This document shows positions 11,232-31,541 of a DNA stretch of 49,526 nucleotides, piece by piece; within the stretch, counting starts at the first letter, position 1, and each line of letters starts with the position of its first letter. Source of the DNA: a virus; the IMG/VR virus record IMGVR_UViG_3300031371_000005, positions 1 to 49,526 of that record; one strand, given 5' to 3'. Both the position numbers and the translations under genes were made by a program. Below the pieces are notes generated by a model. That model searched no databases. It saw only the letters and a program-made list of their open reading frames with translations, and was not told the origin of the DNA.

Positions 11232-11260
11232 TTGACGTCACCACCTATGGGTGTTAACTT
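11232..11260 (+). promoter_or_regulatory. Operator-promoter 1 (HNH operon)
   Basis: TTGACG, 17-base spacer, TAACTT. The spacer holds CACCTATGGGTG at 11242-11253, one base from the palindrome CACCTATAGGTG shared by five other promoters. It sits 29 bases before the HNH start and is back-to-back with the fibre promoter. Confidence 0.75.
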
Positions 11261-11288
11261 AGTATTAGGAGCTGACAGGAGGCCAAGG

Positions 11289-11645
11289 ATGAAAAAACGG
11301 ACGCAAGGAATGCATTGGATTCGGGACGAGAAACGCCTGGCTATCTACCTCCGCGACGGCGTGGCCTGTATCTACTGCCAGGCGTCCGTCGAGCAAGAGA
11401 CCAAACTGACCTTGGACCACATCAAGCCGTACAGCAAGGGCGGGACCAACGAGGCCGGAAACCTGGTAACCTGCTGCCTGAAATGCAACAGCTCTCGCGG
11501 AACGCGGCCTGTGTCGGCCTTTATCGAAGCAGTAGCCGAGTACACCGAACAGGACCCAAAGGAGATAAAGGCCAGAATCCGGCGCCACAGGGGCCGGACA
11601 ATCAACGTCGCCGAGGCCAAAGAGCTGATGACGGCGAGGAATTAA
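11289..11645 (+). CDS. HNH endonuclease, 118 aa
   Basis: CIYC (27-30), LDHIKPYSKGGTNEAGN with the DH pair at 43-44, and CLKCNSSRG (63-71) form a complete HNH fold with a structural zinc. The ATG follows AGGAGGCCAAGG. HNH proteins near terminase genes often assist packaging or nick DNA, and others are homing or anti-host nucleases. Here the gene is on the opposite strand from the terminase and under an operator-controlled promoter, which suggests early or regulated expression. Confidence 0.88.
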   Translation: MKKRTQGMHWIRDEKRLAIYLRDGVACIYCQASVEQETKLTLDHIKPYSKGGTNEAGNLVTCCLKCNSSRGTRPVSAFIEAVAEYTEQDPKEIKARIRRHRGRTINVAEAKELMTARN

Positions 11646-11657
11646 AAGGAGACTGAC

Positions 11658-11885
11658 ATGCAAAAGAAGAAGTCCGCGTGGAAAGAGTACGACGTGACGG
11701 TCCGAGCTACCGGATGCACTGTCGTCCGAGTAAAGGCCAGGAACCCGTACGAAGCGATGGAGAAGGCCGAAGACCAGGTGCCGGACATCGACATAGAGCT
11801 TGAGGCCGAGCACCCACGCCAAGTTGACGGAAAGAAGTCTTTAACTGTCAGTGACATCTATTGGCTTTACGATTTAGGAGAATGA
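11658..11885 (+). CDS. Small protein, 75 aa (paralogue of the next gene)
   Basis: YDVTVRATGCTVVRVKARNPYEAMEKAE shares its pattern with the next gene product (YEVKVRLTGTRTVRVKARSAIDAVEAAQ): a short beta hairpin followed by a helix. This is a frequent form in small phage proteins of unknown role. AAAGGAG precedes the ATG. Confidence 0.75.
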   Translation: MQKKKSAWKEYDVTVRATGCTVVRVKARNPYEAMEKAEDQVPDIDIELEAEHPRQVDGKKSLTVSDIYWLYDLGE

Positions 11886-11887
11886 TA

Positions 11888-12082
11888 ATGAACGAGAAAC
11901 CAAACGAAGTACGGGCCGAATACGAGGTCAAAGTCCGGCTGACCGGAACCCGAACCGTCAGAGTCAAGGCGCGAAGCGCGATAGACGCGGTGGAAGCCGC
12001 CCAAAAACCCATCAGAATGGACGACGGCACCATTTTGTTTTGCGAGGCCGAGAGCGGCCGCCGGGTATCGGAAGGAAACTGA
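11888..12082 (+). CDS. Small protein, 64 aa (paralogue of the previous gene)
   Basis: ATG 11888 is 7 bases after AGGAG. The ATG at 11882 is too close to serve. Residues 10-40 resemble those of the gene at 11658-11885, so the two arose by tandem duplication. No known function. Confidence 0.75.
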   Translation: MNEKPNEVRAEYEVKVRLTGTRTVRVKARSAIDAVEAAQKPIRMDDGTILFCEAESGRRVSEGN

Positions 12083-12083
12083 C

Positions 12084-12452: not shown

Positions 12453-12472
12453 ACGAAGAAAGGAAAACCAAT

Positions 12473-12703
12473 ATGCACGCCTACAACAAATCAAAAACTG
12501 AAGAGTCTCTCAGCCAACAAATCCAGAGAGCTGCTCTCTACAAAATCTTACGGCGTAGATACGACGAAAAAACGGTGGCCGAAAAGTTAGGCGTTACGCT
12601 TATCGACGCAAAAGCCCTGCTAAAACTCGAAGATTGGCCGCTCCGCACAGCTATACGAGTCGCCGAAGCGCTGGGCCTAAGGATACAAATCAAATTCTTC
12701 TGA
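12473..12703 (+). CDS. Small HTH (XRE-like) protein, 76 aa
   Basis: KTVAEKLGVTLIDAKALL and WPLRTAIRVAEALGLRI fit a compact XRE-type helix-turn-helix like small phage regulators. GAAAGGAAAACC precedes the ATG. As the last gene of the first operator-controlled operon it is a candidate for the protein that binds the CACCTATAGGTG sites, though nothing in the sequence proves this. Its end lies 8 bases from the convergent terminase stop. Confidence 0.7.
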   Translation: MHAYNKSKTEESLSQQIQRAALYKILRRRYDEKTVAEKLGVTLIDAKALLKLEDWPLRTAIRVAEALGLRIQIKFF

Positions 12704-12711
12704 CGGCAATG

Positions 12712-14699: not shown

Positions 14700-14706
14700 C
14701 AGTATT

Positions 14707-14735: not shown

Positions 14736-14762
14736 TAAAAGCAAATCGATGTCGTTTTCCGG

Positions 14763-14791
14763 TTGCAGTCACCACCTATAGGTGTTAATTT
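14763..14791 (+). promoter_or_regulatory. Operator-promoter 2
   Basis: TTGCAG, 17 bases, TAATTT, with the perfect palindrome CACCTATAGGTG at 14773-14784. The leader that follows contains ATCAGGAGATGACGAAAGGA, shared with other promoters. It drives 14822-16610 or part of it. Confidence 0.78.
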
Positions 14792-14821
14792 AATATCAGG
14801 AGATGACGAAAGGAAGACAAA

Positions 14822-14983
14822 ATGAAATTTTACATCTACGAAATAGGGACAAAAGAAGTAGTAGAAATCGTGGAGGTCGAAGACGGCAGCGAGTGCCCGA
14901 CAGACGGCCTTGAGTACGACTGGGACGAATACGCCGGTACTTACACCCCGGCGTTCGGGACCGTAGACGGATTGATCCTGTAG
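14822..14983 (+). CDS. Small acidic protein, 53 aa
   Basis: MKFYIYEIGTKEVVEIVEVE then ECPTDGLEYDWDEYAG. GAAAGGAAGACAA precedes the ATG and operator-promoter 2 is directly upstream, making this the first gene of its transcript. Very acidic. First-transcribed small acidic proteins in phages are often host-takeover or anti-defence factors, which is conjecture here. Confidence 0.75.
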   Translation: MKFYIYEIGTKEVVEIVEVEDGSECPTDGLEYDWDEYAGTYTPAFGTVDGLIL

Positions 14984-15003
14984 CCTGAAGAAAGGAAACC
15001 AAA

Positions 15004-15384
15004 ATGATAAGGCACAAAACCGTAGAGATAAGGGCAAAGGCCTTCGAGGACAAAGGGGTCCAAAAACACGAGGTATCCGTGGTGGAAAGCGTTGTCGACA
15101 ACCCAAATTGGGATGGCCGGAGAAGAAGCCAGCAAAAAATGCTGAAAGTAACTGTCGGGGTCCGGGACCCGAAGACCGGGGACTACACCTACAACCACGA
15201 CCTTTGCCCGGCAGCCATCCGCCGAGCAGTAAAGCTCGCGATGCCGTGGAGAGTACACATCGAGCCAGAAGGAGTAATCAAGCGACGCTTCTTCGCGGAG
15301 AGAGATGCCCAGGCTTACGCGTCCAGGTTCGGGGAGGCTGGGTCCTGGTACAAAGAAGGAGGCAGAAATGACAAAGATGAATAG
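15004..15384 (+). CDS. Hypothetical protein, 126 aa (paralogue of 19008-19313)
   Basis: Residues 55-95 (VRDPKTGDYTYNHDL, RRAVKLAMPWRVHIE) match the product of 19008-19313 (IKNPETGEYTFNHNL, RRARKIALPWRVEVA). The C-terminus ends with an A-x-A-x-A helix and Trp-Tyr-Lys. GAAAGGAAACC precedes the ATG. Function unknown. Confidence 0.77.
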   Translation: MIRHKTVEIRAKAFEDKGVQKHEVSVVESVVDNPNWDGRRRSQQKMLKVTVGVRDPKTGDYTYNHDLCPAAIRRAVKLAMPWRVHIEPEGVIKRRFFAERDAQAYASRFGEAGSWYKEGGRNDKDE

Positions 15385-15541
15385 CATCAAAAAAAAGATG
15401 GACAACGAAGACAGCCGCCGTTTTTGGGATTCATTCCCGCGTCCGGAAACCAACGAGATAAAGATTGCGCTACCTTCAATAGGTGAATCATGGTGGGAAG
15501 CTGAGAAGGAGTTATCTCCAAGTCTTTTATCTCTTAAATAA
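15368..15541 (+). CDS. Small protein, 57 aa
   Basis: ATG 15368 has AAGGAGGCAGA directly upstream and overlaps the previous gene by 17 bases. Basic N-terminus (MNSIKKKMDNEDSRRFW), acidic and hydrophobic C-terminus. No family recognised. Confidence 0.68.
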   Translation: MTKMNSIKKKMDNEDSRRFWDSFPRPETNEIKIALPSIGESWWEAEKELSPSLLSLK

Positions 15542-15646
15542 CCGGTGACCAAGCGTGGATGCATCATCGGAGTGGCACAATCTGTGTCAAACGACGGCAC
15601 AACGGTTGCCAGAATCCGGTAGCCCAGCAGCCAAAAGGGGGACCAA

Positions 15647-15991
15647 ATGCCAAGAACAAAAGAATCGCCGACACAATACTCGATGTACTATGAAGACCAA
15701 CTCGTGGAAGGTAGCGTTCAACTCGGAGGTGACGAACCGTCGCTTTTCGCGCCAACCCACGTAATGAGCCGTGAAGAAATACAGAGCTGGGAGGCCGGGC
15801 ACACGAAAGCCAAGGCCAAAGTCAAGCTCCAAAGGGAGCTGTGCGCCATCGTCCTCAACGCCCACGATGCCGGGATACTCCCGATGACCGACAGCGAGAT
15901 AGCCGTCGTCCGGGCCATGGAGAAGTCGAACAAGCCGCTCAAGGACACCCACCTCGCCGTGCTCCGGGCGCTGGTCGAACGAGCCAAATGA
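15647..15991 (+). CDS. Hypothetical protein, 114 aa
   Basis: Helical C-terminal half (AKAKVKLQRELCAIVLNAH, DSEIAVVRAMEKSNKPLK). AAAGGGGGACC precedes the ATG. The 105-base gap upstream contains a GTGGCACAATCTGTGTC element like the palindrome at 16905-16919. Confidence 0.75.
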   Translation: MPRTKESPTQYSMYYEDQLVEGSVQLGGDEPSLFAPTHVMSREEIQSWEAGHTKAKAKVKLQRELCAIVLNAHDAGILPMTDSEIAVVRAMEKSNKPLKDTHLAVLRALVERAK

Positions 15992-16035
15992 AGTGCTGCG
16001 CCTGGTGAAAGAACGCCTAAAAAAAGGAATAAAAA

Positions 16036-16353
16036 ATGAAAATATACCAGACAAAAAAAACACGCGAAGTATTGAGCCGGATCGAAGCGATTTCTGAGGT
16101 GGGATGGAACGAAGGGCAGCGGCCGACGGAATATTTGGATGACGATTATGAATATTTAGGAATATCAGAGGATCCATATATTGATAGTGATTGGGAATTG
16201 AATGCCAAGTCTTTGTTTTCAGCTAACTTGGAAGAAGAGTGGATCCAGTGTACCGCTGAGGAATTCGTCGGTCACTGCGCTAGGCTTCTTCCAATATGTC
16301 TTGCCCAGGAAGGAGGTGTACTGCACCGGTTAGATTTCGAGGTAGAGGCTTAA
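16036..16353 (+). CDS. Hypothetical acidic protein, 105 aa, AT-rich
   Basis: Clearly more AT-rich than its neighbours (codons such as AAT, ATA, TTG), which suggests recent acquisition. Acidic Tyr/Asp-rich stretch (YLDDDYEYLGISEDPYID), then CARLLPICLAQEGGVLHRL. Preceded by AAAAAGGAAT. No family recognised. Confidence 0.7.
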   Translation: MKIYQTKKTREVLSRIEAISEVGWNEGQRPTEYLDDDYEYLGISEDPYIDSDWELNAKSLFSANLEEEWIQCTAEEFVGHCARLLPICLAQEGGVLHRLDFEVEA

Positions 16354-16397
16354 GGCAGATGTTATCTTATTAATAGGAGATGACGAAAGGAAGACAG

Positions 16398-16610: not shown

Positions 16611-17363
16611 ACCCACCGTCATCTGGCAGCCGCAACCCTACATCCAGAGCCCGGAATCCAAAATAAAATCAGCAACCTCCCCTAAAGTGTCTCGAAAACT
16701 AGACACCTAGATATATCAAAGTCTGATGTAATTTTTTCTGGAATACCGTCATATGTGTGCTTTTTACAAGACAGCCGGATTTTTCAGGGTCGGTATTACC
16801 TTTTTGCGTAGAAATATCGGAATCCGATATGTGACAAAATGTCAAAGTTTGACAAAATGTCACTATTTCGTCACCCGATAAGTCGCGTTTTTGCGATTTT
16901 CGGCGGCACAACTTGTGCCATTCTGTGCCCGGCATTGTGCCACTTGTATCGGGTACCCGATTGGACCGACCATGGACCGACCCCAGCCCGAGGGGGGGTC
17001 GGTCATGACGATGCCTTTGATTCCGGGAACTTGCACGATATGGACCGACGGACCGACCTAAAGTCGTGTTGGACTGAATATTTTTTACTGTTTTTCGCTA
17101 GTTCTATAAATACTGTAATAATTCCGTTATTTGTGTAATAGGGGTCTAGAATAAACTTTTAGGGTTTTAGTCGGTCCGTTAAAATAAGTACAGAATAAGT
17201 ACCCGGAATCCCAAGTAAATCTCTGACCGACGGGGGGTCGGTCCAGGGGTCGGTCCGGGGTCGGTCCATAGCCTACGTCTGCGACAATTTTGTACTTTTC
17301 ACCCAGGATTCCGGCCTCCAAGTGCACGGGGTGAAAAAGCACCGGGGAGGTGTGATTTTAGGG
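16611..17363. other. Noncoding region, candidate replication origin
   Basis: No gene is supported here. Left part: ATATCGGAATCCGATAT (16814-16830), two TGACAAAATGTCA units 18 bp apart (16832-16844, 16850-16862) and GGCACAACTTGTGCC (16905-16919), all palindromic, plus ATCGGGTACCCGAT (16948-16961). Then about ten GGACCGACC-type elements: forward at 16963, 16974, 17042, 17050 and 17225 (partial); reverse at 16997, 17170, 17236, 17248 and 17259. Between 17070 and 17165 is an AT-rich block (ATATTTTTTACTG, TTATTTGTGTAATA). Iterons flanking an AT-rich unwinding element is the usual layout of a protein-initiated origin. Confidence 0.6.
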
Positions 17364-17392
17364 TTGCGGGCACCACCTATAGGTGTTATCCT
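17364..17392 (+). promoter_or_regulatory. Operator-promoter 3
   Basis: TTGCGG, 17 bases, TATCCT, with the perfect palindrome CACCTATAGGTG at 17374-17385. It is followed by the shared leader ATCAGGAGCTGACGAAAGGG and gene 17425. Confidence 0.78.
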
Positions 17393-17424
17393 GTTATCAG
17401 GAGCTGACGAAAGGGAAACACGAG

Positions 17425-17723: not shown

Positions 17724-18392
17724 ATGGCCTATTTAAAACGAAAGCCCGGGTCCTATGCGACGGGTGGGATCGTTAATCCTTGGAGTCCGGAAGGGGCTGC
17801 CCAGCGTCTGCGAGAACGTGACGCAAAAGCCGGCATGGCTAAGGTAAGTCCTTTTACCGGCCGCGTAGTGCATTGCTGCCGGGCGTCTTCGCTTCAAGCA
17901 GCCGATTGTAGCGGGCCTGATTTAATACCCCCGGATTTCCGCGGATGCGACTTAGGATTTGTAAACTTCCAGGGTGCCGATCTACGCGGTGTCGGATTCC
18001 GGCACACCGATTTCCAGCGGGCCTGTTTTCAGGCAGCTAACGCTAAGTATTCTACCTTCTGGGACTGCGATTTCCGGCATGCCGACTTTTCACGCGCCGA
18101 CTTTCGGGCAGCCATTCTTAGTGCGTCCAGGTTTGAAGGGGCTGAATTCTGCGAGTCTAATTTTAAGGCGTCTGATTTGATGTGCTCGGACTTCCGCGAG
18201 GCTATCATTCGCAACTCTGATTTCCGGGAGTCCCAGCTGTGGGGGGCTGATTTTCGAGGTTCGGATATTCGGAGATCCGATTTCCGGGGAGCTGACCTGA
18301 GGTACGCCAAGTTTAATGGGTCTTCGATAGCGCAGGTAAGCTTTCAGGGCGCTCTACTCGCTGGCACCGACATTAATTTCGGCGAAGCGTAA
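17724..18392 (+). CDS. Pentapeptide-repeat protein 1 (Phe type), 222 aa
   Basis: About 30 pentapeptides of A(D/N)F-x-x form from residue 62 on (CDFRHADFSRADFRAA) should form a right-handed quadrilateral beta-helix with Phe inside. Before them stands a cap, SPFTGRVVHCCRASSLQAAD, nearly the same as in the second repeat protein at 20374. ATG 17724 follows GAAAGGAAACCCG, and ATG 17835 (MAKVSPFTGR) is an alternative start. Some pentapeptide proteins (Qnr, MfpA) mimic DNA and bind gyrase. That role is possible but unproven. Confidence 0.85.
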   Translation: MAYLKRKPGSYATGGIVNPWSPEGAAQRLRERDAKAGMAKVSPFTGRVVHCCRASSLQAADCSGPDLIPPDFRGCDLGFVNFQGADLRGVGFRHTDFQRACFQAANAKYSTFWDCDFRHADFSRADFRAAILSASRFEGAEFCESNFKASDLMCSDFREAIIRNSDFRESQLWGADFRGSDIRRSDFRGADLRYAKFNGSSIAQVSFQGALLAGTDINFGEA

Positions 18393-18401
18393 AATAAGAC
18401 C

Positions 18402-18430
18402 TTGACCCCACCACCCGTAGGTGTTAACTT
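18402..18430 (+). promoter_or_regulatory. Operator-promoter 4
   Basis: TTGACC, 17 bases, TAACTT. The spacer has CACCCGTAGGTG at 18412-18423, a one- or two-base variant of the palindrome. The shared leader (TATCAGGAGCTGACGAAAGG) follows, then gene 18461. Confidence 0.75.
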
Positions 18431-18460
18431 AGTATCAGGAGCTGACGAAAGGGAAACACA

Positions 18461-18727
18461 ATGACGACATTTAGACCGAGACACGGCGGCGCGCTTCACA
18501 AAGCACTCAACGATACGCACCTGATGACGGGCACCCAGAAGCTTGAGGCTGAGCGGGAAATGGCCCGGCTCGAATGCGACCGGAAACAGGCGGCCGTGGA
18601 CAGATTGCAGATGCTTTCCGACGCCGAGAGAACATCTCTCAGGCTGTCCGTGGAAATCCTGCGGCTACGGACCATCGAGGCCGTCGAACGCGGGGAATTC
18701 TCCTACTTCCAGAATTCGAGGTGGTAA
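18461..18727 (+). CDS. Helical protein, 88 aa
   Basis: Long amphipathic helices (KLEAEREMARLECDRKQAAV, RTSLRLSVEILRLRTIEAVE) suggest a coiled-coil dimer. First gene of operator-promoter 4, with GAAAGGGAAACACA before the ATG. Function unknown. Confidence 0.75.
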   Translation: MTTFRPRHGGALHKALNDTHLMTGTQKLEAEREMARLECDRKQAAVDRLQMLSDAERTSLRLSVEILRLRTIEAVERGEFSYFQNSRW

Positions 18728-18729
18728 CC

Positions 18730-18996
18730 ATGTCACGAACAGAGGAGATTCGAGACCGGATCCTGAATCCCTTCATCACAAACGTTGCGCGGGCGGCTTT
18801 GCTCAGGCAGTACGCTTGCATGACGTACCCCCGGATGATTTGCCAGAGTTGGAACAAGGCGCACGACACCATGGTTCTCTACGAGAAAGTCGCCCAAGAG
18901 CTTGAAGATGACATGCGGGGTTATCCGCCGGGGTATGGGAGCCTTTATGTGACGAGGATTTCAGGTGACGAAGAATGGTTTCTGGCATTCAAGTAG
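18730..18996 (+). CDS. Hypothetical protein, 88 aa
   Basis: Starts 2 bases after the preceding stop, so translation is probably coupled. ARAALLRQYACMTYPRMICQ and YEKVAQELEDDMRGYPPGYG are the visible segments. Helical, no family recognised. Confidence 0.7.
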   Translation: MSRTEEIRDRILNPFITNVARAALLRQYACMTYPRMICQSWNKAHDTMVLYEKVAQELEDDMRGYPPGYGSLYVTRISGDEEWFLAFK

Positions 18997-19007
18997 GAGG
19001 TCTTGGG

Positions 19008-19313
19008 ATGGGATACATCGACATAAAAATGCTGGCCCCGGCTTTCACGTTGCCAAGGCAGACTATTCCGCGGGAGTATGACATGCGTTACTACGTGGAC
19101 AAGGGCATCGTATCGATCAAAAACCCGGAGACCGGCGAATATACCTTCAATCACAATCTACCACAGCGCTCCGTCAGACGGGCGCGGAAGATTGCACTCC
19201 CTTGGCGGGTGGAGGTTGCAATTTGGTCAAGACTGCGAGAAAGGTACGCCTCGAGAGAAGAGGCCAAGGAGGTCGCGGAAGCGCGCGGCGGTTGCTACTA
19301 CAAGGAGGACTGA
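19008..19313 (+). CDS. Hypothetical protein, 101 aa (paralogue of 15004-15384)
   Basis: TAGGAGGTCTTGGG precedes ATG 19008. IKNPETGEYTFNHNL and ARKIALPWRVEVA match the gene at 15004-15384. Residues 75-100 form a helix ending GGCYYKED, like SWYKEGG in the paralogue. Function unknown. Confidence 0.77.
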   Translation: MGYIDIKMLAPAFTLPRQTIPREYDMRYYVDKGIVSIKNPETGEYTFNHNLPQRSVRRARKIALPWRVEVAIWSRLRERYASREEAKEVAEARGGCYYKED

Positions 19314-19316
19314 ACC

Positions 19317-19553
19317 ATGGGATGCTCGAGAAAAGAAGCCGAGGAGTTGGTCGCCAAGATCAACCGCAAATCTCTCCAACACCGGCTGATTATGGCCAAG
19401 ATTTTGCTGGATGAAGGTCGGTACGGTCTCGCCAGGGCTTTCATCGACGCGGTATCCTCCGAGATACTGGTCTACGAGACCTCCGGTGAGATCATGTCCG
19501 AGGGCGGCCGGGAGACGTTTTCTGCGTGCGGGACGAAGGAGGGCAATCCGTGA
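19317..19553 (+). CDS. Small helical protein, 78 aa
   Basis: KKEAEELVAKIN-like N-terminus, then LIMAKILLDEGRYGLARAFI, a helix-turn-helix-like pair. Overlaps the next gene by 4 bases (GTGA). AAGGAGGACTGAACC precedes the ATG. Function unknown. Confidence 0.7.
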   Translation: MGCSRKEAEELVAKINRKSLQHRLIMAKILLDEGRYGLARAFIDAVSSEILVYETSGEIMSEGGRETFSACGTKEGNP

Positions 19554-19864
19554 AAATCACAACAAAACTACTCCGGGAGCTCATTGAGCAACTCGGCGGT
19601 GAGGTTGAGCTGACGGTATCCCGTGAGATGAAGTTAAAAGATGGCGCATGGTCATGCGCCGAAAAGTCTCTCTTATGGACCATAAGAGACGTGTCTTCTG
19701 ACCGCCCCTTGTGGCACAAGTACAACGCCATTTCGCTATCTCTGCTGCATGGGCCCTACGTCGGCAGAGAGGAGAAACTTGAAGAAGCGCTTCGCTCTCG
19801 CGGGCACAAAAGCATGCACTGGAACCCGCCAACCGGTCTCCGAGTGTGGAATGATCCAGTATAA
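19550..19864 (+). CDS. Hypothetical protein, 104 aa, GTG start
   Basis: GTG 19550 overlaps the previous stop and has GAAGGAGGG 6 bases upstream, a much better start than the ATG at 19526. KITTKLLRELIEQLGGEVEL and WNPPTGLRVWNDP are visible. No family recognised. Confidence 0.68.
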   Translation: MKITTKLLRELIEQLGGEVELTVSREMKLKDGAWSCAEKSLLWTIRDVSSDRPLWHKYNAISLSLLHGPYVGREEKLEEALRSRGHKSMHWNPPTGLRVWNDPV

Positions 19865-19876
19865 GGAGGCCTGGAT

Positions 19877-20065
19877 TTGGACTTTCAAAAAGTTTTCGCC
19901 GAAGTTCTAAAACTGGCTCCCGAGATCCGGATTCAGATTGCCGAAAAGCTTATAGCCGAAGGAGCCTATGAGTCTGCCGCTGCTATCCTTGGGCTGCCGC
20001 CGATAGACCACGTCTTGATGGACGACGGCAAAGGAAACACGAAAATACTCAACCTTGACGATTGA
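19877..20065 (+). CDS. Small helical protein, 62 aa, TTG start
   Basis: AAGGAGG sits 7 bases before TTG 19877, and no ATG fits. VFAEVLKLAPEIRIQIAEKL and IAEGAYESAAAILGLPPID make a helical pair similar to that of gene 19317. The stop codon overlaps the -35 region of operator-promoter 5. Confidence 0.65.
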   Translation: MDFQKVFAEVLKLAPEIRIQIAEKLIAEGAYESAAAILGLPPIDHVLMDDGKGNTKILNLDD

Positions 20066-20090
20066 CACCACCACCTGTGGGTGTTAGGTT
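20062..20090 (+). promoter_or_regulatory. Operator-promoter 5 (pentapeptide 2 operon)
   Basis: TTGACA, 17 bases, TAGGTT (weak -10), with CACCTGTGGGTG at 20072-20083 as operator variant. The shared leader is mostly lost, with only GAGAAAGGA remaining. Confidence 0.65.
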
Positions 20091-20110
20091 ACTACGAGAA
20101 AGGAAAAAAT

Positions 20111-20377
20111 ATGAGACTGACACTGACAAACAACTTTCACGGCACCGAGTGCCAAATTACGGTCGACCCGAACGGCCCAAACGCCCTCGGGAAACGCCGT
20201 ATCGCTCGGATCCAGGACGAATTGTGCGGGGTCGCCGGGTGCACGTGCTCCAACGTCCTGGGTCTCCGGGGACCCCAGAACATAACAGACCAGCCACCGT
20301 TTGACTATTATGTCACCGCGGACAGGGATGGGGAGACTATGGTCGTACTATATGTCTACGAGGACGCAAAACGATGA
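20111..20377 (+). CDS. Hypothetical protein, 88 aa
   Basis: GAGAAAGGAAAAAAT precedes the ATG. RLTLTNNFHGTECQITV, then a helix with RRIARIQDELCGVAGCTCSN and a C-terminal beta strand (DGETMVVLYVYED). The pattern is typical of small phage proteins. It overlaps the pentapeptide gene by 4 bases. Confidence 0.72.
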   Translation: MRLTLTNNFHGTECQITVDPNGPNALGKRRIARIQDELCGVAGCTCSNVLGLRGPQNITDQPPFDYYVTADRDGETMVVLYVYEDAKR

Positions 20378-21141
20378 ATATAACGGTAAAGATCAACCCG
20401 TTTACTGGGCGTGTGGTCTACTGCCAACGCGCCCAGTCGTTGCGAAAGGCCGACCTTAGGGGGGCCGACCTCGTGGGGGCCGACCTCACGGATGCCAAGC
20501 TCACGAGGGCCGATCTCACGAGGGCCGACCTCACGGACGCCAAGCTCACGGATGCCAAGCTCACGAGGGCCGACCTCACGAGGGCCGACCTCACGGATGC
20601 CGACCTCACGGATGCCGACCTCACGGATGCCAAGCTCACGGATGCCAAGCTCACGGATGCCAAGCTCACGTGGGCTGATCTCACGAGGGCCGATCTCACG
20701 AGGGCCGACCTCACGGATGCCAAGCTCACGGATGCCAAGCTCACGTGGGCTGGTCTCACGGATGCCGACCTCACGGATGCCGACCTCACGAGGGCCGACC
20801 TCACGGATGCCAAGCTCACGGGGGCTGGTCTCACGGATGCCAATCTCACGGATGCCAATCTCACGTGGGCTGATCTCACGAGGGCCAAGCTCACGGACGC
20901 CAAGCTCACGGACGCCAATCTCACGTGGGCTGACCTCACGGATGCCGACCTCACGAGGGCCGACCTCACGGATGCCAAGCTCACGAGGGCCGATCTCACG
21001 AGGGCCGACCTCACGGACGCCAAGCTCACGGACGCCGATCTCACGAGGGCCGACCTCACGAGGGCCGACCTCACGTGGGCTGATCTCACGGGGGCTGATC
21101 TCACGGATGCCGACCTCACGAGGGCCGAAGGGAATCACTGA
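20374..21141 (+). CDS. Pentapeptide-repeat protein 2 (Leu type), 255 aa
   Basis: About 46 near-perfect pentapeptides, A(D/K/N)LT(D/R/W/G), from residue 22 to 251: roughly 11 coils of a regular beta-helix with Leu at the centre and Ala two residues before it. The N-terminal cap INPFTGRVVYCQRAQSL matches pentapeptide protein 1. The surface is rich in Asp, Lys and Arg. At DNA level the repeat is a 15-bp unit, which keeps other frames open artificially. DNA mimicry (gyrase inhibition) is one known role of the fold, but the uniform repeats also suit a passive rod. Confidence 0.87.
   Translation: MNITVKINPFTGRVVYCQRAQSLRKADLRGADLVGADLTDAKLTRADLTRADLTDAKLTDAKLTRADLTRADLTDADLTDADLTDAKLTDAKLTDAKLTWADLTRADLTRADLTDAKLTDAKLTWAGLTDADLTDADLTRADLTDAKLTGAGLTDANLTDANLTWADLTRAKLTDAKLTDANLTWADLTDADLTRADLTDAKLTRADLTRADLTDAKLTDADLTRADLTRADLTWADLTGADLTDADLTRAEGNH
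20450..21127 (+). repeat. 15-bp tandem repeat array in pentapeptide gene 2
   Basis: About 45 copies of a 15-bp unit near GCCGACCTCACGGAT, differing mainly at the fifth codon and at the GAC/AAG codon. Interspersed longer blocks repeat exactly, which shows expansion by unequal exchange or slippage. Confidence 0.93.
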
Positions 21142-22037: not shown

Positions 22038-22062
22038 CACCCGGAACCCGGCAGCCTATACT
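22034..22062 (+). promoter_or_regulatory. Strong promoter of the 175-nt ncRNA
   Basis: TTGACA, 17-base spacer, TATACT: 11 of 12 consensus bases, the best sigma70 match in the window. No operator palindrome in the spacer. No gene follows. The next feature is the terminator at 22199-22242. Confidence 0.75.
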
Positions 22063-22067
22063 CAAGT

Positions 22068-22243
22068 AGTCAGACCTTCCTTTTCGTCGGACCTCTTAGC
22101 CGCCCTTGGGACATTTGTTATTCTGGGGGCGGCAACCTTTACCTTGACAGATACTCAAAAGCCGATTAAAAAGAAAGTGCTTGTGTTTCACGGTTTTCGG
22201 CCCCTGGGGATGTATTACCGGCATCCCCAGGGGCCATTTTTTG
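22068..22243 (+). ncRNA. Candidate phage small RNA, about 175 nt
   Basis: Bounded by a near-consensus promoter and a textbook terminator, with no convincing reading frame. The predicted fold has a 7-bp GC stem (22099-22105 with 22127-22133, 21-nt loop), enclosed by CUUUU-CG-UCGG (22080-22090) pairing with CCGA-UU-AAAAG (22162-22173), then the terminator hairpin. The 5' segment CUUCCUUUUCGUC (22076-22088) is complementary to the GACGAAAGGAAG leaders at 14805-14816 and 16382-16393 (12 pairs, one bulged U). A function in blocking translation is inferred. Confidence 0.62.
22199..22242 (+). terminator. Rho-independent terminator
   Basis: GGCCCCTGGGGATG (22199-22212) pairs perfectly with CATCCCCAGGGGCC (22222-22235) around a 9-base loop, followed by ATTTTTTG. 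It ends the ncRNA and insulates the convergent primase gene, whose stop is at 22244. Confidence 0.92.
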
Positions 22244-24338: not shown

Positions 24339-24548
24339 TTACGCCCCCGTTCGCGCTCTCTCGACATCCTTCCTATCGGCCGCCAGCCGGTCGACCTCGG
24401 TTTTCGGCCACAGCAGATCCCACTGTGGCTTGATAGGTTTCAGCCCGCCGGGCCCCCCGCCGAAACGACTCCACTGATATAAGGTATGCTTTGACACTTC
24501 CAGGACGATAGCGGCTTCGTCAGTCGTGTAATATGATGTCTCCGTCAT
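24339..24548 (-). CDS. Small HTH protein (MerR/excisionase-like), 69 aa
   Basis: YYTTDEAAIVLEVSKHTLYQW is a winged-helix/MerR-type DNA-binding segment as in excisionases and AlpA-like regulators. It ends with PKTEVDRLAADRKDVERAR. ATG 24548 has AAAGG 8 bases upstream. It leads the primase operon and may autoregulate it through the palindrome overlapping its own promoter. Confidence 0.8.
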   Translation of the reverse strand: MTETSYYTTDEAAIVLEVSKHTLYQWSRFGGGPGGLKPIKPQWDLLWPKTEVDRLAADRKDVERARTGA

Positions 24549-24733: not shown

Positions 24734-25153
24734 ATGGGTTGCGGTATTCATTTATACATTGAAGTTTTAACGGAAAACGGCTGGGAGCTTTATAGTCATC
24801 CTTTTATAAGGCAGGACTACGAGCTGTTCGCAAAGATGGCCGGAGTCCGAAACGACGGCGGGATTGAACCGATCTCTTTGCCGAAAGGGCTCCCAGAAGA
24901 CATCTCTTACATCGTAGGGAAGTCTTCTGTGGATTGGGGGGCCGACGGCCATTCTCACAGCTGGCTCAACTCCGCTGAAATCAAAGAGCTCAGAGAGTGG
25001 AACGATGGCGGGCGCGGGGATCCCTATGAAAATCCATTCTCAAAAGACCTACACCACTACATTTTGAGGTGTTATTGCGAAGGTAGCTATTTCGACAGGC
25101 CCCAGAACCCCTGGATAAAAGACACCAGATTTGTATTCTGGTTTGACAATTGA
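24734..25153 (+). CDS. MGC-x-IH family phage protein, 139 aa
   Basis: It starts MGCGIHLYIEV, a variant of the common phage family beginning MGCDIH. That family's Asp is Gly here. YELFAKMAGVRNDGGIEP and HSHSWLNSAEIKELREW follow the family pattern. Function of the family unknown. First gene of the replication operon. Confidence 0.78.
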   Translation: MGCGIHLYIEVLTENGWELYSHPFIRQDYELFAKMAGVRNDGGIEPISLPKGLPEDISYIVGKSSVDWGADGHSHSWLNSAEIKELREWNDGGRGDPYENPFSKDLHHYILRCYCEGSYFDRPQNPWIKDTRFVFWFDN

Positions 25154-25168
25154 GAAGGAGATATATAG

Positions 25169-26122
25169 ATGGCGACAATTGAAATCCGGATAACGGCCGA
25201 CACGGAGTCGGACAAAGAATTAATCACGGCAGTCGGGGCTGCTTTGACCGGTAACTTGGTTGACGAGGAGTTGTTTGGAAAAATCTACGAGCAACCGGCA
25301 CCCGAGCAACCGGCACCCGAGCAACCGGCACCCGAGCAGCTGACACCCGAGCAACCGGAACCCGAGCAACCGGCACCCGAGCAACCGGCACCCGAGCAAC
25401 CGGCACCCGAGCAACCGGCACCCGAGCAACCGGCACCCGAGCAACCGGAACCCGAGCAACCGGCACCCGAGCAACCGGCACCCGAGCAACCGGCGCCCGA
25501 GCAACCGGCGCCCGAGCAACCGGCACCCGAGCAACCGGCACCCGAGCAACCGGCACCCGAGCAACCCGAAATAAAGGAGTGCCGGAAGCCGCGCGGGAAG
25601 CCGCGGCCGCCGAGGGCAGGCCTTGACGAAAAGCCCGGGGAGTGCGCTCAGTGTCTGTCGGCGGCCGTCAATGATGAAGGCTGGTACTGTGAAGCTCATA
25701 TGCGAGCGTTGTCCGCAGATAGCACAAAATGCGCTGCTTTCCGCGCCGTTGGCGGCCCAAAATACCCGGTCGCCGAGGAGCCGGTCGCCGAGGAGCCGGT
25801 CGCCGAGGAGCCGGTCGCCGAGGAGCCGACACCGACGGAAGACCCGTTCACGCAGCGTCTGCTCCCCCTCGAGGAGGAAGTCAAAGAGGAACAACCCTTC
25901 GGCGCTTTCATCCCGGAGCCGGAGACAGTCAAGCCGGTGCCCGCGGACCCGGCGAAAGTCAGGCAGCAATTCGAGCGGGCCATCCTGGCGCTGAAAAACC
26001 GGTCGCCGGAGCAACTTGCTTCATTCGCGAAGAAGCACGGGTTGCGGAACTCGCGGGACGTGAAAGATGAAGACCTGACGGCTTTGCTCGAGGAAGTTGA
26101 AATTATGCTGGTAGGTGAATGA
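25169..26122 (+). CDS. Proline-rich repeat protein with Cys motif, 317 aa
   Basis: Residues 1-40: small domain. 42-134: PAPEQ repeats, about 18 copies. 150-190: possible zinc site (ECAQC...WYCEAHM...KC). Then four VAEEP repeats (about 196-215), an acidic stretch, and a helical C-terminal domain ([29 protein letters not shown]). The repeats should be an extended polyproline spacer between binding modules. GAAGGAGATATATAG is a very strong ribosome site. It is coupled to the DUF2800 nuclease gene, so it may tether replication proteins. Confidence 0.82.
25288..25566 (+). repeat. 15-bp tandem repeat (PAPEQ codons)
   Basis: About 18 copies of a 15-bp unit near GAGCAACCGGCACCC, almost identical, with occasional GAA-for-GCA or CTG changes. 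Prone to copy-number change. A second shorter array, GTCGCCGAGGAGCCG x4, lies at about 25768-25827. Confidence 0.92.
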
Positions 26123-27327
26123 TGGCATTCCAACTCCATTTCTCGCCGTCCGGGTCGTCACAGTGGCTCAACTGCCCGATGGCCGCCTGGCTACAAACGC
26201 TGACGGACGAGCGCCGGCCGCCGGAGACCAGGCTTCGATACTCGCAGAAGCTCGTCGGACCGACTCCGCAGTACACGATTGACGGCACGACGGCGCACTC
26301 GTACCTCGAGGCGTTGCTGAACGCGCCGTCGAGTTGGGCCGAAGAGATCTCAGACAAGATGAGGGAGTTTGTCTCGTGGGATTTTCCGACCATCCCGGAT
26401 GAAGAGAAGAAGCTTTTGAACATGGTCGCCGATGACGTTTGGTTCACGAAATCTTTCGGAGGCTACGAGCTGAAGACAGAGCAGAAGGTTGAAATCTCAT
26501 ACGACGGGTACAAGACCGATGGCGGTACAATTGACGTCCTTCTTCTGCGTGGGGATGCCGCGTACATCATCGACTTGAAATGGGGGGAAGGGCAGCCGGT
26601 TGAAGTGCGTGAAAACACCCAACTCAGCTGCTATGCTCTTGGCGTCCGGCAGGCATACCCCGAGTTAGAGTGCATCACTTTCGGCATCTACCAGCCGCGC
26701 GGGAACGGAGCCGGGCTTACATTCTGGGAGCCGGATTTCGGGTACCTCGACGACTTTGAAGAACGGGCAGCTACTGCCATAGACGAGGCCGCGTGTAGCG
26801 TAACTGCAAACGGCTTTGAGAACTCATCGAAAGAGTACAACCCCGGAAAGCATTGCTTTTGGTGCCCGGGTCGCCGAAAGGGTTTGTGCCCGGAGCTGTT
26901 GCACCACACGATTATGGCGTCGGTGTCGGACACAGACCCATCGCTCCCGGTATCCGAATACCCGCTTTGGGTGCTTGATTTTGCCGACAACATCCGCGGC
27001 ACAATAAAAAAGGTGGAAGAGGACGTTGACGCGATGCTGACGAGAGGAATCCGGGTGCCGGGCTGGCGGCTTGAGACCGTCGAGGGGAACTCGTCATGGG
27101 AGCATGACGAGGAAGTTGCCCGGGGGCTCGCGGACGCGCTCGGCGGGGAGCCTGGTGACTATATTCGACAGAATCCAAAGCCGATTACACTCACCGACGC
27201 CCGGAAGCTTGCGAATAGGAAATCGGTGTCCGTCGAGCATTTGATAACGCACAAGAAGAAAACTGTCAGAGTCCGGAGTTCGGACGATGACTTTGAAGTC
27301 CCGGCCTTAGTTGAGCCGGTAGAGTAG
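26119..27327 (+). CDS. Cas4-like exonuclease, DUF2800 family, 402 aa
   Basis: A PD-(D/E)XK nuclease core: GTTAHSYLE (His60), TDGGTIDVLLLRG (Asp139) and YIIDLKWGEG (Asp152, Lys154). An iron-sulfur staple is likely: Cys19 (LNCP) with Cys246, Cys249 and Cys257 (HCFWCPGRRKGLC). This is the standard phage DUF2800 protein, a RecB/Cas4-type nuclease for recombination. The start overlaps the preceding gene, and the DUF2815 gene follows, the usual pair. Confidence 0.9.
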   Translation: MMAFQLHFSPSGSSQWLNCPMAAWLQTLTDERRPPETRLRYSQKLVGPTPQYTIDGTTAHSYLEALLNAPSSWAEEISDKMREFVSWDFPTIPDEEKKLLNMVADDVWFTKSFGGYELKTEQKVEISYDGYKTDGGTIDVLLLRGDAAYIIDLKWGEGQPVEVRENTQLSCYALGVRQAYPELECITFGIYQPRGNGAGLTFWEPDFGYLDDFEERAATAIDEAACSVTANGFENSSKEYNPGKHCFWCPGRRKGLCPELLHHTIMASVSDTDPSLPVSEYPLWVLDFADNIRGTIKKVEEDVDAMLTRGIRVPGWRLETVEGNSSWEHDEEVARGLADALGGEPGDYIRQNPKPITLTDARKLANRKSVSVEHLITHKKKTVRVRSSDDDFEVPALVEPVE

Positions 27328-27336
27328 GAGATTGAA

Positions 27337-28026
27337 ATGGTAGACATCATGAAATTGGAAGGGATGACGAAAACCGGAAGGGCTGAGGAGGTCAGCGGGA
27401 AGAAAGCGACAATCATCACGCCGGTGTTCCGGCTCCGGTTCCCCGTTTTGGTTGAGCCGACGGACTACCAAGACGATGGGAAGTACCGGTACCGGGTCAA
27501 GATGCTTTTCAACGGCGAGAAACCTGACGCCCCGGCTTTTGTCGACATGCGGAGTGTTATCGGCGATGCGCTCGCAAAGGTTGCCGCGGCAAATTCCATC
27601 AACCTGAAAGCGAGGGGCGGGGAGGCCAATCCTTTCGCGCGAGGCGTGATCGAGGACAAAGATGGCGAGCCCTACGACGGGTTTGAAGAATGGACCCAAA
27701 GTGCGACGGCATCCAAGCACCCGTCGAAGGGTCAATCGCACACCGACTCCCGGTTTCGCGTGCAGTGCGTTTCAGGCACCGGGCAGCCGGCCGACCCGTC
27801 GATATTCTACGATGGGTGCTACTGCCGGGCCCTCGTAGACATCTACAAAAACCGAAAGAACGCGCTGTCGATCGGCCTCAAGTGGATTCAATTCGTAGCC
27901 GACGGCCCGCGACTCGGGGCCAACGACAACACCGCGTATGACGTGCCCGCCGTCCCGGGCGCCGAGGACATGCCTGTCCCGGATTCCGGGGCCGATGCCG
28001 ACGACCCGAACGGCATCCCGTTCTAG
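27337..28026 (+). CDS. ssDNA-binding protein, DUF2815 family, 229 aa
   Basis: FRLRFPVLVEPTDYQDDG, KNRKNALSIGLKWIQFVADG and the acidic C-terminal tail (DADDPNGIPF) fit DUF2815, gp2.5-like phage single-strand binding proteins. The acidic tail recruits partner enzymes in the family. It sits between DUF2800 and the polymerase as in many phage replication modules. Confidence 0.88.
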   Translation: MVDIMKLEGMTKTGRAEEVSGKKATIITPVFRLRFPVLVEPTDYQDDGKYRYRVKMLFNGEKPDAPAFVDMRSVIGDALAKVAAANSINLKARGGEANPFARGVIEDKDGEPYDGFEEWTQSATASKHPSKGQSHTDSRFRVQCVSGTGQPADPSIFYDGCYCRALVDIYKNRKNALSIGLKWIQFVADGPRLGANDNTAYDVPAVPGAEDMPVPDSGADADDPNGIPF

Positions 28027-28101
28027 CGTTTCCCGCCTTCAACGCGTCCGTCTCTCTCTCTCTCTCGGGAGGCGGGCGTCCTTGAGGGAAGGAGGCCTGG
28101 T
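28027..28101 (+). promoter_or_regulatory. Intergenic stem-loop with (TC)n loop
   Basis: CCCGCCT (28032-28038) pairs with AGGCGGG (28070-28076) around a 31-base loop holding about eight TC units. No U-tract follows, so it is not a canonical terminator. It may protect mRNA ends or attenuate. AAGGAGG for the next gene lies downstream. Confidence 0.35.
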
Positions 28102-28368
28102 ATGGCAATGACGGTAAAAGAACTACGAGAGGCGTTGAAGCAATACCCAGATGACATGGAGGTCATTGTTCAAAGTGACTCTGAGGGCAATAGCTATTCG
28201 CCGCTGTATTGCGTCGATGGCAACGCGGTGTACATAGCCCGGGAGACCTGGTACGGGGATGTGTTTTCGACGGAATGGACCTTTGAGGAGGCTGAATGCA
28301 TGGACGAAGAGGAGTGGGACGAAATTCTCAGGATGCCGAGGTCTTTGATTTTGGTTCCGGTGAACTGA
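28102..28368 (+). CDS. VKELREAL family phage protein, 88 aa
   Basis: MTVKELREALKQYPDDMEVI is a widespread small phage/bacterial protein with this N-terminus. A shortened copy of the first 20 codons appears at 28662. Acidic helix near the end (CMDEEEWDEIL). Unknown function. GGAAGGAGGCCTGGT precedes the ATG. Confidence 0.8.
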   Translation: MAMTVKELREALKQYPDDMEVIVQSDSEGNSYSPLYCVDGNAVYIARETWYGDVFSTEWTFEEAECMDEEEWDEILRMPRSLILVPVN

Positions 28369-28386
28369 CTTAAGGGAGGCACAGTC

Positions 28387-28671
28387 ATGAAAGAATTTAT
28401 CCTGCAGCCAGTAGTCCGATTTGAAAGCGTAACAGATTTTCACGGATACCTGTACCAGCGGACTGTTTACGGCCCGACAGAAGAAAGCATCTGGTTCTCA
28501 CAATTCCGAAAAGAACGTAATATCGGGCTCCGTAAGGCCGCGAAGATAATCGGGCTGCCGGTATCTGTGCTGTCCAGGCTTGAAGTAGGCGCTGTTATTT
28601 TTACGCATGCGACCAGTTTCGAGAACGCAAAAAATGCGCTGAGGTCTCACATCGGAGTGGTATGGCCGTAA
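28387..28671 (+). CDS. HTH (XRE-like) protein, 94 aa
   Basis: FRKERNIGLRKAAKIIGLPV, then SVLSRLEVGAV, is a clear XRE helix-turn-helix at residues 41-72. The first 40 residues form another small domain. Candidate regulator of replication-region promoters. Confidence 0.8.
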   Translation: MKEFILQPVVRFESVTDFHGYLYQRTVYGPTEESIWFSQFRKERNIGLRKAAKIIGLPVSVLSRLEVGAVIFTHATSFENAKNALRSHIGVVWP

Positions 28672-28736
28672 CGGTAAAAGAATTGCGAGAAGTGTTGATG
28701 TACGACCCAGGCAATATTAAACCCGGAGGTACGGAC
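28662..28736 (+). pseudogene. Truncated copy of the VKELREAL gene start
   Basis: ATGGCCGTAACGGTAAAAGA codes MAVTVKELREVLMYDP, like the start of 28102-28368. After about 20 codons it runs in frame into the next gene's start without a stop. It is probably a relic of a partial duplication. If its ATG is used, the next protein gains 25 residues. Confidence 0.55.
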
Positions 28737-29003
28737 ATGCAGAAATACAACGTCAACGAATCGATCCAAAACCAAAAGGAATACTGCGCGACCAAGGGAT
28801 ACTCGCAAGTCGCCCCCCGAGATGGCATCTGTGGTAACTGCGGCCTGCAAATCTACAGCGTGGTGTACCATGAGCCGAATAACTTCCAAAAGTCCTTCGG
28901 CATGCAAGGATGGGTCACCGGTGTTTCGACCGAGGAATCCAAAATGTTGGTGATTGGGTGCCCGCACTGCCGACACAGTTTTATACGGTTGGCACCGGCA
29001 TGA
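28737..29003 (+). CDS. Zinc-ribbon-like protein, 88 aa
   Basis: ATG 28737 follows CGGAGGTACGGAC. CGNC (about 34-37) and CPHC (about 76-79) form a likely four-Cys zinc site. Overlaps the polymerase start by 4 bases (ATGA), so expression is coupled. Function unknown. Confidence 0.76.
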   Translation: MQKYNVNESIQNQKEYCATKGYSQVAPRDGICGNCGLQIYSVVYHEPNNFQKSFGMQGWVTGVSTEESKMLVIGCPHCRHSFIRLAPA

Positions 29004-31033
29004 TTTTCATTGACTTTGAGGCCCGCTCTTTCGCAAAGCTGTCGCCAAATCAAGTGAGCGTCGGCACGGTCAACTACGTGAGCCACGAGAGCACGCAGCC
29101 ACTAAGCGCCTGCTATGCCTTTGACGACGGCGGTATCCACCGCTGGGCACCGTGGACCGGGCATGAGTGCTTGGCCGCCCGGGTCGCCCTGCGGAAGGAC
29201 ATCGGTGGCCGGGTTGACTTCTCATGCCCGCCGGACCTCGCGGAGCGGGTGCTTGAGGGTGAGCCGATTTGCGCGCACAACGCAACCTTCGACCGGACTT
29301 TCTGGCTTGACTTGCTGACGAAGTGGTACGGCTGGCCGAAGACACCAATCGAACAGTGGGTGTGTTCGTCAGCGACAGCACGATACAACTGCCTGTCGGC
29401 CGGCCTGGACGACGTGTGCACGTTTCTCGGGCTCCCGGGCAAGGCGGACAATGCTGCACTGAAAAAGCTGTACGCCCCCAGGCCGCAGTGGATGAATTCC
29501 CGGAAGGGAACCCCTTGGAACTTTGACGCCGAGACCTACCAAAATATGGTCGGTTACAATGTCGGCGACGTCCGGGCCATGCGTGCCGCCATGCGGTTGA
29601 TGTTTCCATTGACGCCATCGGAAAGAGCGTTGTGGCTCGCCGACCAGGAAATCAATCTGACCGGCGTCCCGGTAGACAGGGAGCTGGTTGACGAGGCATC
29701 CCGGCGGTCAGACACGTTTAAAGCTGAAATTGCGAAAGAAGTTCAGCGGCTGACCAACGGCGAAATATCGACGCCGAATCAACGCGACAAACTCCTCGCT
29801 TGGCTCCGTCGGCATATTGTCATCAAAGACCTCACTGCCGGTGAGATCAAATACTACCTGAGGCACAACGAGCGCGCCCCGAAGCACGTGTTGCGGGTGC
29901 TTGAGCTCCGGCAGCTGGGTGGCGGTAACGCCCAGGCCAAATACAAAGCGATTCCGCGGCTGGCGACCGGAGACCGGGTTTACAACTCATTTTACTACTA
30001 TGGCGGGCATACCGGCCGAGCATCGGCCAAAGGTGTCCAGTACCAGAATGCCGTCCGCCCGAAGCTTGATGCGGACACAGTCGGCCCGCTGATAGATCCT
30101 TTTAAGCGTGGGGAGGATATCGACGGGCACGAGCTGAAAGACGTTCTGGACAGCATGGTTCGGTGCTCGGTTGCCGCACTCCCGGGACACGTGCTCGTAT
30201 CGAACGACTTGTCACAGATAGAGGCCCGCGGGACCATGTGGTTGGCGGGCGAGACTACTGCGCTCGAGCGATTTGCGGCCGGCGTAGACCAGTACAAGAT
30301 AATGGCGTCCGAAATTTTTATCAAGCCGGTGCCTAAAATAATCAGTTTTGAACGCGGTATTGGAAAGGCGACTTTCTTGGGCTGTGGATTCGGGATGCAA
30401 GCGCCCCGATTCCAGGAATCGTTGTATGAGAGGGGCATCGAAGTCCCGCTAGAACTCGCTGAGAAGTCGGTTGCCGCTTTCCGGAAGCTGTTTCCAAAAG
30501 TGCCGAAGATGTGGTGGAAGATCGACCAGCTCGTAAAGGACTTATTGAGGACGCGAAAAGACCAGAATTTTAAGGGCAAGGTCTTTTTCAGCCTTATAAA
30601 ACTTGGACCCCACGATACGATGGCCGTCACCCTTCCGTCCGGGCGGACGTTGTACTACCCAAACATCCGGCTTGAAGAAGCCTACGGGCGAAATGGAACA
30701 TACGAGCGCATTGCGTACTCCGGGTACCGGAAACAAGTCTGGGTCGATGAAATATTTACGAAGGGCAGCGCCGTCACGGAAAACGTCGTCCAGGCTTTCA
30801 GCCGCGACATCCTGATGACCGCGCTTCTTCGGATCCACAGGTGGCTCAAGGAGACAAAGTACGGCGAGCTTGTGATGCATGTCCACGACGAACTGGTAGC
30901 TCATGTGCTCGAGCGTTATGCCGAAGTTGTATTGCAACGGATGGCCTGGGAGATGGAGAAGGTATTGCCCTGGGCGAAAGGAATCCCGCTGGCCTCCGAG
31001 GGCTGGATTGGAAAATTTTACCGGAAGGAATAG
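29000..31033 (+). CDS. polA: Family A DNA polymerase with 3'-5' exonuclease, 677 aa
   Basis: Exonuclease: IFIDFEARS (Asp5, Glu7), CAHNATFDRTFW and YNVGDVRAM. Polymerase motif A NDLSQIEARG (Asp403), motif B ERGIGKATFLGCGFG (Arg452, Lys456, Leu460, Phe464), motif C MHVHDELV (His629, Asp630). Leu460 stands at the E. coli Pol I Phe762 position, the Leu762 class known from phage surveys. No 5'-3' exonuclease domain. Replicative polymerase of this phage. ATG 29000 overlaps the zinc-ribbon gene. Confidence 0.93.
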   Translation: MIFIDFEARSFAKLSPNQVSVGTVNYVSHESTQPLSACYAFDDGGIHRWAPWTGHECLAARVALRKDIGGRVDFSCPPDLAERVLEGEPICAHNATFDRTFWLDLLTKWYGWPKTPIEQWVCSSATARYNCLSAGLDDVCTFLGLPGKADNAALKKLYAPRPQWMNSRKGTPWNFDAETYQNMVGYNVGDVRAMRAAMRLMFPLTPSERALWLADQEINLTGVPVDRELVDEASRRSDTFKAEIAKEVQRLTNGEISTPNQRDKLLAWLRRHIVIKDLTAGEIKYYLRHNERAPKHVLRVLELRQLGGGNAQAKYKAIPRLATGDRVYNSFYYYGGHTGRASAKGVQYQNAVRPKLDADTVGPLIDPFKRGEDIDGHELKDVLDSMVRCSVAALPGHVLVSNDLSQIEARGTMWLAGETTALERFAAGVDQYKIMASEIFIKPVPKIISFERGIGKATFLGCGFGMQAPRFQESLYERGIEVPLELAEKSVAAFRKLFPKVPKMWWKIDQLVKDLLRTRKDQNFKGKVFFSLIKLGPHDTMAVTLPSGRTLYYPNIRLEEAYGRNGTYERIAYSGYRKQVWVDEIFTKGSAVTENVVQAFSRDILMTALLRIHRWLKETKYGELVMHVHDELVAHVLERYAEVVLQRMAWEMEKVLPWAKGIPLASEGWIGKFYRKE

Positions 31034-31477
31034 TCGGTACAGAAAGGCTTAATATGGAAGATCTAAAAACAGTGAAGTGTAGCGATTGCAAGCACCTGAG
31101 GTTCGATGCTTTCACGGGGGTGGTGCATAGATGCGCCGCAAGAAGGTTCACGGTGTACGGCCAGCCGAGCCCGCTTATCATCTTCATCCCGTCGAAGCCA
31201 AGAGTCTGCGACAGCTTTGAGGAGAAGCAACCGGCGATACGATAAAAATTTTACCGGAAGGAATAGCCGGTACAGAAAGGTTTAAAATGGAAGATCTAAA
31301 AACAGTGAAGTGTAGCGATTGCAAGCACCTGAGGTTCGACGCTTTCACGGGGGCGCTGTTGCCCGGGTGCGCCGTGAAAAAGGTTAGTGGTCTTTACGGT
31401 GATCCACCGAGCCCGCTTATCATCTTAAACCCGTCGAAGCCAAGAGTCTGCAGTGAATTTGAGGAGGAGCAGCCGGT
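31012..31477 (+). repeat. 233-bp tandem duplication
   Basis: 31012-31244 and 31245-31477 are two copies at a 233-bp offset. Each begins with AAAATTTTACCGGAAGGAAT, the end of the polymerase gene, and continues with a small Cys gene. The first 95 bases are almost identical, later parts differ by small indels. Confidence 0.9.
31054..31245 (+). CDS. Small Cys protein, copy A, 63 aa
   Basis: KCSDCKHLRFDAFTGV, then HRCAARR, PSKPRVCDSFEE: four Cys as CxxC...C...C, a probable zinc site. Starts 20 bases after the polymerase stop with AGAAAGG upstream. The next gene is its duplicate. Confidence 0.8.
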   Translation: MEDLKTVKCSDCKHLRFDAFTGVVHRCAARRFTVYGQPSPLIIFIPSKPRVCDSFEEKQPAIR

Positions 31478-31493
31478 AGCACAAGAAAAATAA
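31287..31493 (+). CDS. Small Cys protein, copy B, 68 aa
   Basis: The same first 21 residues as copy A, then diverged by insertions (ALLPGCAVKKVSGLYGDPPS) with the four Cys kept. It has its own AGAAAGG ribosome site, copied with the gene. Conservation of Cys after divergence argues that both copies are functional. Confidence 0.8.
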   Translation: MEDLKTVKCSDCKHLRFDAFTGALLPGCAVKKVSGLYGDPPSPLIILNPSKPRVCSEFEEEQPVAQEK

Positions 31494-31513
31494 CGACCGT
31501 GAATAAAATATGT

Positions 31514-31541
31514 TTGCGTCGACACCTATAGGTGGTACACT
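31514..31541 (+). promoter_or_regulatory. Operator-promoter 6 (replication region)
   Basis: TTGCGT, 16 bases, TACACT, with the perfect palindrome CACCTATAGGTG at 31523-31534. Unlike the others, the downstream leader is different (GGAAGGAAGGTGAAGTC), so only the control element is shared. Confidence 0.72.

Follow-up and report, generated by a model that had tools for sequence, protein, structure and literature searches.

Operators that overlap the spacers of early promoters are well known from phages lambda and 434, and the operators of 434 consist of 5-bp arms around an uncontacted 4-bp center. Activation from within the spacer is known from MerR-type promoters, which need a spacer of 19–20 bp. 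In cluster K mycobacteriophages such as Adephagia, seven intergenic copies of a 46–47 bp element, ESAS, combine SigA-like hexamers 17–18 bp apart with an inverted repeat, and repression has been suggested for these elements, although their function is unproven (PMC11373665; PMC3203893). The stoperators of cluster A mycobacteriophages are asymmetric sites that are bound by a monomeric repressor and that also block elongation (PMC9283540), and the MqsA-type antitoxin operator has the form AACCT-N3-AGGTT (PMC4894380).

We analyzed a 49,526-bp viral record (IMGVR_UViG_3300031371_000005, positions 1 to 49,526; hereafter the window) that carries a repeated promoter-like element with a palindrome inside its spacer. 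Like ESAS, this element is present in several intergenic copies, pairs sigma70-type -35 and -10 boxes (spaced by 17 bp) with an inverted repeat, and stands upstream of a conserved leader close to the start codons of non-structural genes. However, ESAS inverted repeats are imperfect and 15–17 bp long, with spacers of 4–14 bp, whereas the palindrome described here is a compact 12-bp dyad within the 17-bp spacer; this dyad and the leader, AGGAGNTGACGAAAGG, depart from the ESAS/SAS definition (PMC3203893). ESAS-bearing phages are also temperate actinobacterial phages with a repressor, whereas the window derives from a myovirus in which no tyrosine integrase was found. We regard ESAS as the nearest known arrangement – an analogue rather than a member of the same class, with no sequence similarity claimed.

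The layout ACACC-TATA-GGTGT resembles that of the 434 operators, though here there is a single site per promoter, 6–8 promoters are involved, and none of the HTH proteins examined is CI-like. We propose a single phage protein for the sites scattered over this genome, as in the stoperator system (PMC9283540), but the sites seen here are symmetric and lie in promoters only. We rate the system as belonging to a known kind, the dispersed phage operator-promoter regulon: the same palindrome recurs at a fixed phase in many promoters, is absent from genes and is conserved in a relative. In a phage group not yet characterised, it provides a small regulon open to testing; it is also an example, from outside the cluster K mycobacteriophages, of repeated promoter cassettes with an inverted repeat.

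A palindrome within the spacers of six putative promoters

Six promoter-like sites in the window contain CACC-N4-GGTG, all on the plus strand. The initial annotation had placed a palindrome between -35 and -10 at these six promoters, and this is borne out: the sequence is exactly CACCTATAGGTG at 14773, 17374 and 31523, with 1 mismatch at 11242 and 2 each at 18412 and 20072. Spacing between the -35 TT(G/T) and the -10 TA-N3-T is 17 bp at 6/6 sites, rather than 16–17 bp, and a start codon with a ribosome-binding site follows each site at 19–44 bp. Matches to the hexamer consensus are weak: in a strict scan five of the sites went unlisted, and the sixth was picked up only in a different register.

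Five of these sites belong to a ~70-bp promoter-plus-leader repeat, which begins upstream of the -35, contains the leader and the ribosome-binding site and ends close to the start codon. Cassette 1 (11219..11288, +) comprises -35 TTGACG at 11232, operator CACCTATGGGTG at 11242–11253, -10 TAACTT and the leader, and precedes genes for an HNH nuclease, small proteins and the HTH protein 12473. Cassette 2 (14750..14819, +; -35 TTGCAG, operator CACCTATAGGTG at 14773–14784, -10 TAATTT) heads the small genes of 14822–16353. It is followed by a truncated cassette (16357..16396, +) that retains the -10 and leader (TTATCTTATTAATAGGAGATGACGAAAGG) and from which the palindrome and -35 are gone. Cassette 3 (17351..17420, +; -35 TTGCGG, operator CACCTATAGGTG at 17374–17385, -10 TATCCT) precedes 17425 and a pentapeptide-repeat protein gene, and cassette 4 (18389..18458, +; -35 TTGACC, operator CACCCGTAGGTG at 18412–18423, -10 TAACTT) precedes the small genes of 18461–20065. 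Downstream of cassette 5 (20059..20110, +; -35 TTGACA, operator CACCTGTGGGTG at 20072–20083, -10 TAGGTT) lie 20111, a second pentapeptide-repeat protein gene, 21145 and 21417. Site 6 (31513..31541, +; -35 TTTGCG, operator CACCTATAGGTG at 31523–31534, -10 TACACT) heads the genes from 31564 onward, and its flanks are unlike those of cassettes 1–5. The earlier suggestion that part of the replication region would be switched holds loosely at best: the core replication operon (24734–31033) contains no operator, and the palindrome at 31523 lies 3′ of the DNA polymerase gene, as the first element of an accessory/recombination stretch.

The HNH nuclease gene (11289–11645) is the first of operon 1, and its HNH stretch matches the IscB model (E 1.6e-15, well below the cut-off). 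The genes at 15004–15384 and 19008–19313 are a paralogous accessory pair, and a second paralogous pair, at 31054–31245 and 31287–31493, is a tandem duplicate adjoining the site at 31523.

The bare 12-mer, at up to 3 mismatches, occurs 11 times in the window against 11.4 expected, so mismatch counting alone would give the finding no support. For CACC-N4-GGTG the observed count is six, whereas 300 first-order Markov simulations averaged 0.86 and never exceeded 5; the full architecture, TT[GT]-N7-CACC-N4-GGTG-N-TA-N3-T, occurs six times against a simulated mean of 0.003. Because this last pattern was composed after the sites were known, the close relative described below, G001, serves as the independent test. 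The CACC-N4-GGTG core is confined to the promoter sites in both genomes; no copy falls within a gene, and equal frequency inside genes was what the initial annotation had named as grounds for rejection.

The right arm of the palindrome ends in TG at the extended -10 position at all 14 sites of the two phages, so operator and promoter overlap. This double use of the right arm, like the ~70-bp repeat and its truncated copy at 16357, had been missed initially. Around the 12-bp dyad, a 16-bp extended operator can be written as A-N-CACC-YRYR-GGTG-N-T. Its center is YRYR at 14/14 sites, as would be expected of a center that is bent rather than read (indirect readout) – weak evidence, because transitions make up 67% of all differences genome-wide.

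This footprint, the phase fixed across 14 sites and the lack of genic copies give good support to joint regulation of these promoters through a dimer operator lying within each. The initial annotation had left open whether the dimer represses or activates. An activator that sits on the palindrome and aids RNA polymerase at weak promoters, through MerR-like distortion from the spacer, would suit the weak -35 and -10 matches and the weak similarity of one HTH protein, 24339, to MerR-like and excisionase families. We nevertheless consider an activator improbable, as the TG extended -10 already compensates for weak hexamers and a 17-bp spacer should suffice for unaided activity. With the spacer always 17 bp (14/14 sites), not 19–20 bp, a repressor suits the sites better than a MerR-type activator does.

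Conservation and cargo differences in a close relative

A terminase search found a single close relative, IMGVR_UViG_3300031354_000003 (G001; 50,106 bp), which is colinear with the window, circularly permuted and, across 44 kb of aligned DNA, ~89% identical. The breaks of both records fall within repeats, and the two together suggest near-complete genomes. The eight sites of G001 all share the frame and strand of those in the window; five are exact, two have 2 mismatches and one has 3. The constant phase claimed for the palindrome thus holds throughout the window and at 8/8 sites of the relative, the comparison that the initial annotation had named as a check, with the 17-bp phase and the strand both kept.

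Conservation was counted over six orthologous site pairs. Within the CACC/GGTG arms 2/48 positions have changed (1/24 in the left arm), and neither the first three -35 bases (0/18) nor the T, A and T of the -10 (0/18) have changed at all. The palindrome center has changed at 6/24 positions, and all remaining cassette positions (center included, promoter elements and arms excluded) at 95/336 (28%). Fisher tests gave p = 1e-4 for the arms against the rest and p = 0.004 for the left arm alone, with the caveat that the sites of a single phage are not independent of one another.

Cassette duplication accounts for part of the scatter of the sites. One alternative reading is that the repeat is a duplicated promoter and ribosome-binding cassette and nothing else, its palindrome lacking a protein partner and being kept by recent copying and, in the right arm, by selection for the extended -10. 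The five window copies do form one ~70-bp repeat family, and the G001 copies look homogenised around TTATCTTATTA. However, orthologous copies have diverged by 28% outside the promoter elements and arms while the left arm has barely changed, and the site at 31523 has an exact palindrome, at the same phase, on a non-homologous backbone. Simple duplication does not explain the latter, which indicates that the palindrome is selected, not merely copied. We regard duplication alone as the least probable of the explanations weighed here.

Accessory genes downstream of the repeat copies differ between the two phages, with non-homologous cargo between the cassettes. From 16650 to 17412, through cassette 3 inclusive, the window is ~90% identical to G001. 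Past this cassette the window continues with 17425 and the pentapeptide-repeat gene; in G001 a D12 adenine methyltransferase gene is followed by a further cassette and an unrelated gene, and the two genomes rejoin at cassette 4. This pattern would fit an exchange of cargo at the cassettes. The repeated promoter-leader may serve as a shared landing slot for the gain, loss and exchange of accessory genes, which would remain part of the regulon. We tentatively propose – against the odds, in our own estimate – that this is a virulent myovirus whose portable promoter-operator-leader cassette acts as a plug-in slot, with accessory genes swapped by recombination between cassettes and then controlled by a single shut-off switch for the whole phage. 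A cassette that combined the two functions, switch and exchange site, would explain how phages acquire accessory (and possibly counter-defence) genes yet keep control over when these are expressed.

The two pentapeptide-repeat genes lie at 17724–18392 (cassette 3) and 20374–21141 (cassette 5). The latter is a near-perfect array of a 15-bp DNA repeat, and the G001 assembly breaks in this array.

The DNA of the cassette has no credible match among 50,697 phage records, and the motif was not found in distant relatives identified by DNA polymerase or primase-helicase. A pattern scan of IMG/VR returned G001 and five single-site contigs, three of which look like chance coding matches. The other two are near-identical marine contigs that share one promoter-like site and lack a repeat family; in these (L014, 9089–9113 on the minus strand, and L015), a peroxiredoxin-like gene is preceded by a promoter-like site with a 17-bp spacer, containing a single exact CACCTATAGGTG.

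A putative shut-off switch and its candidate regulators

The best explanation of the sites, to which we assign a probability of roughly 60%, is a sigma70-type promoter cassette with a dyad operator in its spacer, through which a dimeric repressor would co-regulate the accessory operons. One DNA-binding protein probably controls all cassette-headed genes together. In the mechanism we propose, the repeated cassette would be read by the host polymerase, with the 12-bp dyad filling the 17-bp spacer, and a small dimeric HTH protein would occupy the two CACC/GGTG half-sites between -35 and -10. The bound dimer would cover the extended -10 TG and exclude RNA polymerase, and all accessory operons would be turned off together.

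Its likeliest role would be to turn early accessory genes off in the course of infection, as Cro does, and not to maintain lysogeny. The phage looks virulent, and early shut-off appears likelier than lysogenic immunity because no tyrosine integrase was found and none of the examined HTH proteins resembles CI. The tyrosine-recombinase family (PF00589) has no match in either genome, with the proviso that both records lack end repeats and may contain gaps. A role for the palindrome as an RNA hairpin was rejected, as it lies upstream of the predicted start and its stem is only 4 bp; no virion RNA polymerase, of the kind that uses N4-type hairpin promoters, was recognized among the proteins examined.

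Four HTH proteins had been nominated as regulators, and two remain candidates. The XRE-like protein encoded at 28387..28671 (+) is absent from G001, and the XRE protein at 33064..33309 (+; HTH_31) has had its HTH deleted there; since G001 has eight operators, both are unlikely as the shared regulator. No HTH_3 or HTH_31 match occurs anywhere in G001. The 33064 protein weakly matches the MqsA family, whose operator is likewise a short XRE-dimer palindrome with ACCT/AGGT half-sites, but the arms and center length are different, and the operators were kept where this HTH was lost.

The best-placed candidate is the product of 12473..12703 (+), an HTH_37-like (XRE-type) protein by a weak match that is kept in G001. 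Its gene is the last of operon 1, so it would be autoregulated. It is 92% conserved in G001, though 5/6 differences, including K47E and A48E, cluster at residues 43–54, on or beside the predicted recognition helix (43–50). Its AlphaFold model is moderately confident (pLDDT 71) and is consistent with, but no proof of, an XRE-type helical domain: Foldseek returned no match at E<=0.001, and VIA-align scores had Z <= 6.0. No relatives were found in phage records, in IMG/VR beyond G001 or in species genomes. The second candidate, encoded at 24339..24548 (-), has weak similarity to HTH_17 (excisionase/MerR-like). It is ~95% conserved in G001, its own promoter region contains no operator, and no relatives were found among phage records.

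The palindrome could possibly be bound by a host regulator or by an unrecognized phage protein. If the phage exploits a host-encoded regulator, its cargo operons would answer to the state of the host. This would accommodate the loss in G001 of two of the four named HTH proteins while the operators were kept, the other two being unproven. However, when 84,980 species genomes were scanned, one site matched TTG-N7-CACCTATAGGTG-TTA, apparently within a gene of a Chitinophagaceae MAG. The scan thus gives no hint that a host regulon uses this exact promoter, though it would miss divergent operators, and we consider a host regulator unlikely.

A candidate small RNA

A further element, at 22034–22243 (+), is a candidate small structured phage RNA. 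It has no convincing ORF and no Rfam match, and has a sigma70 promoter that matches at 11/12 positions. The predicted RNA contains an internal hairpin and a 15-bp terminator (fold z -4.7). In G001 the promoter and terminator are near-identical, and the internal hairpin, though changed in sequence, still forms.
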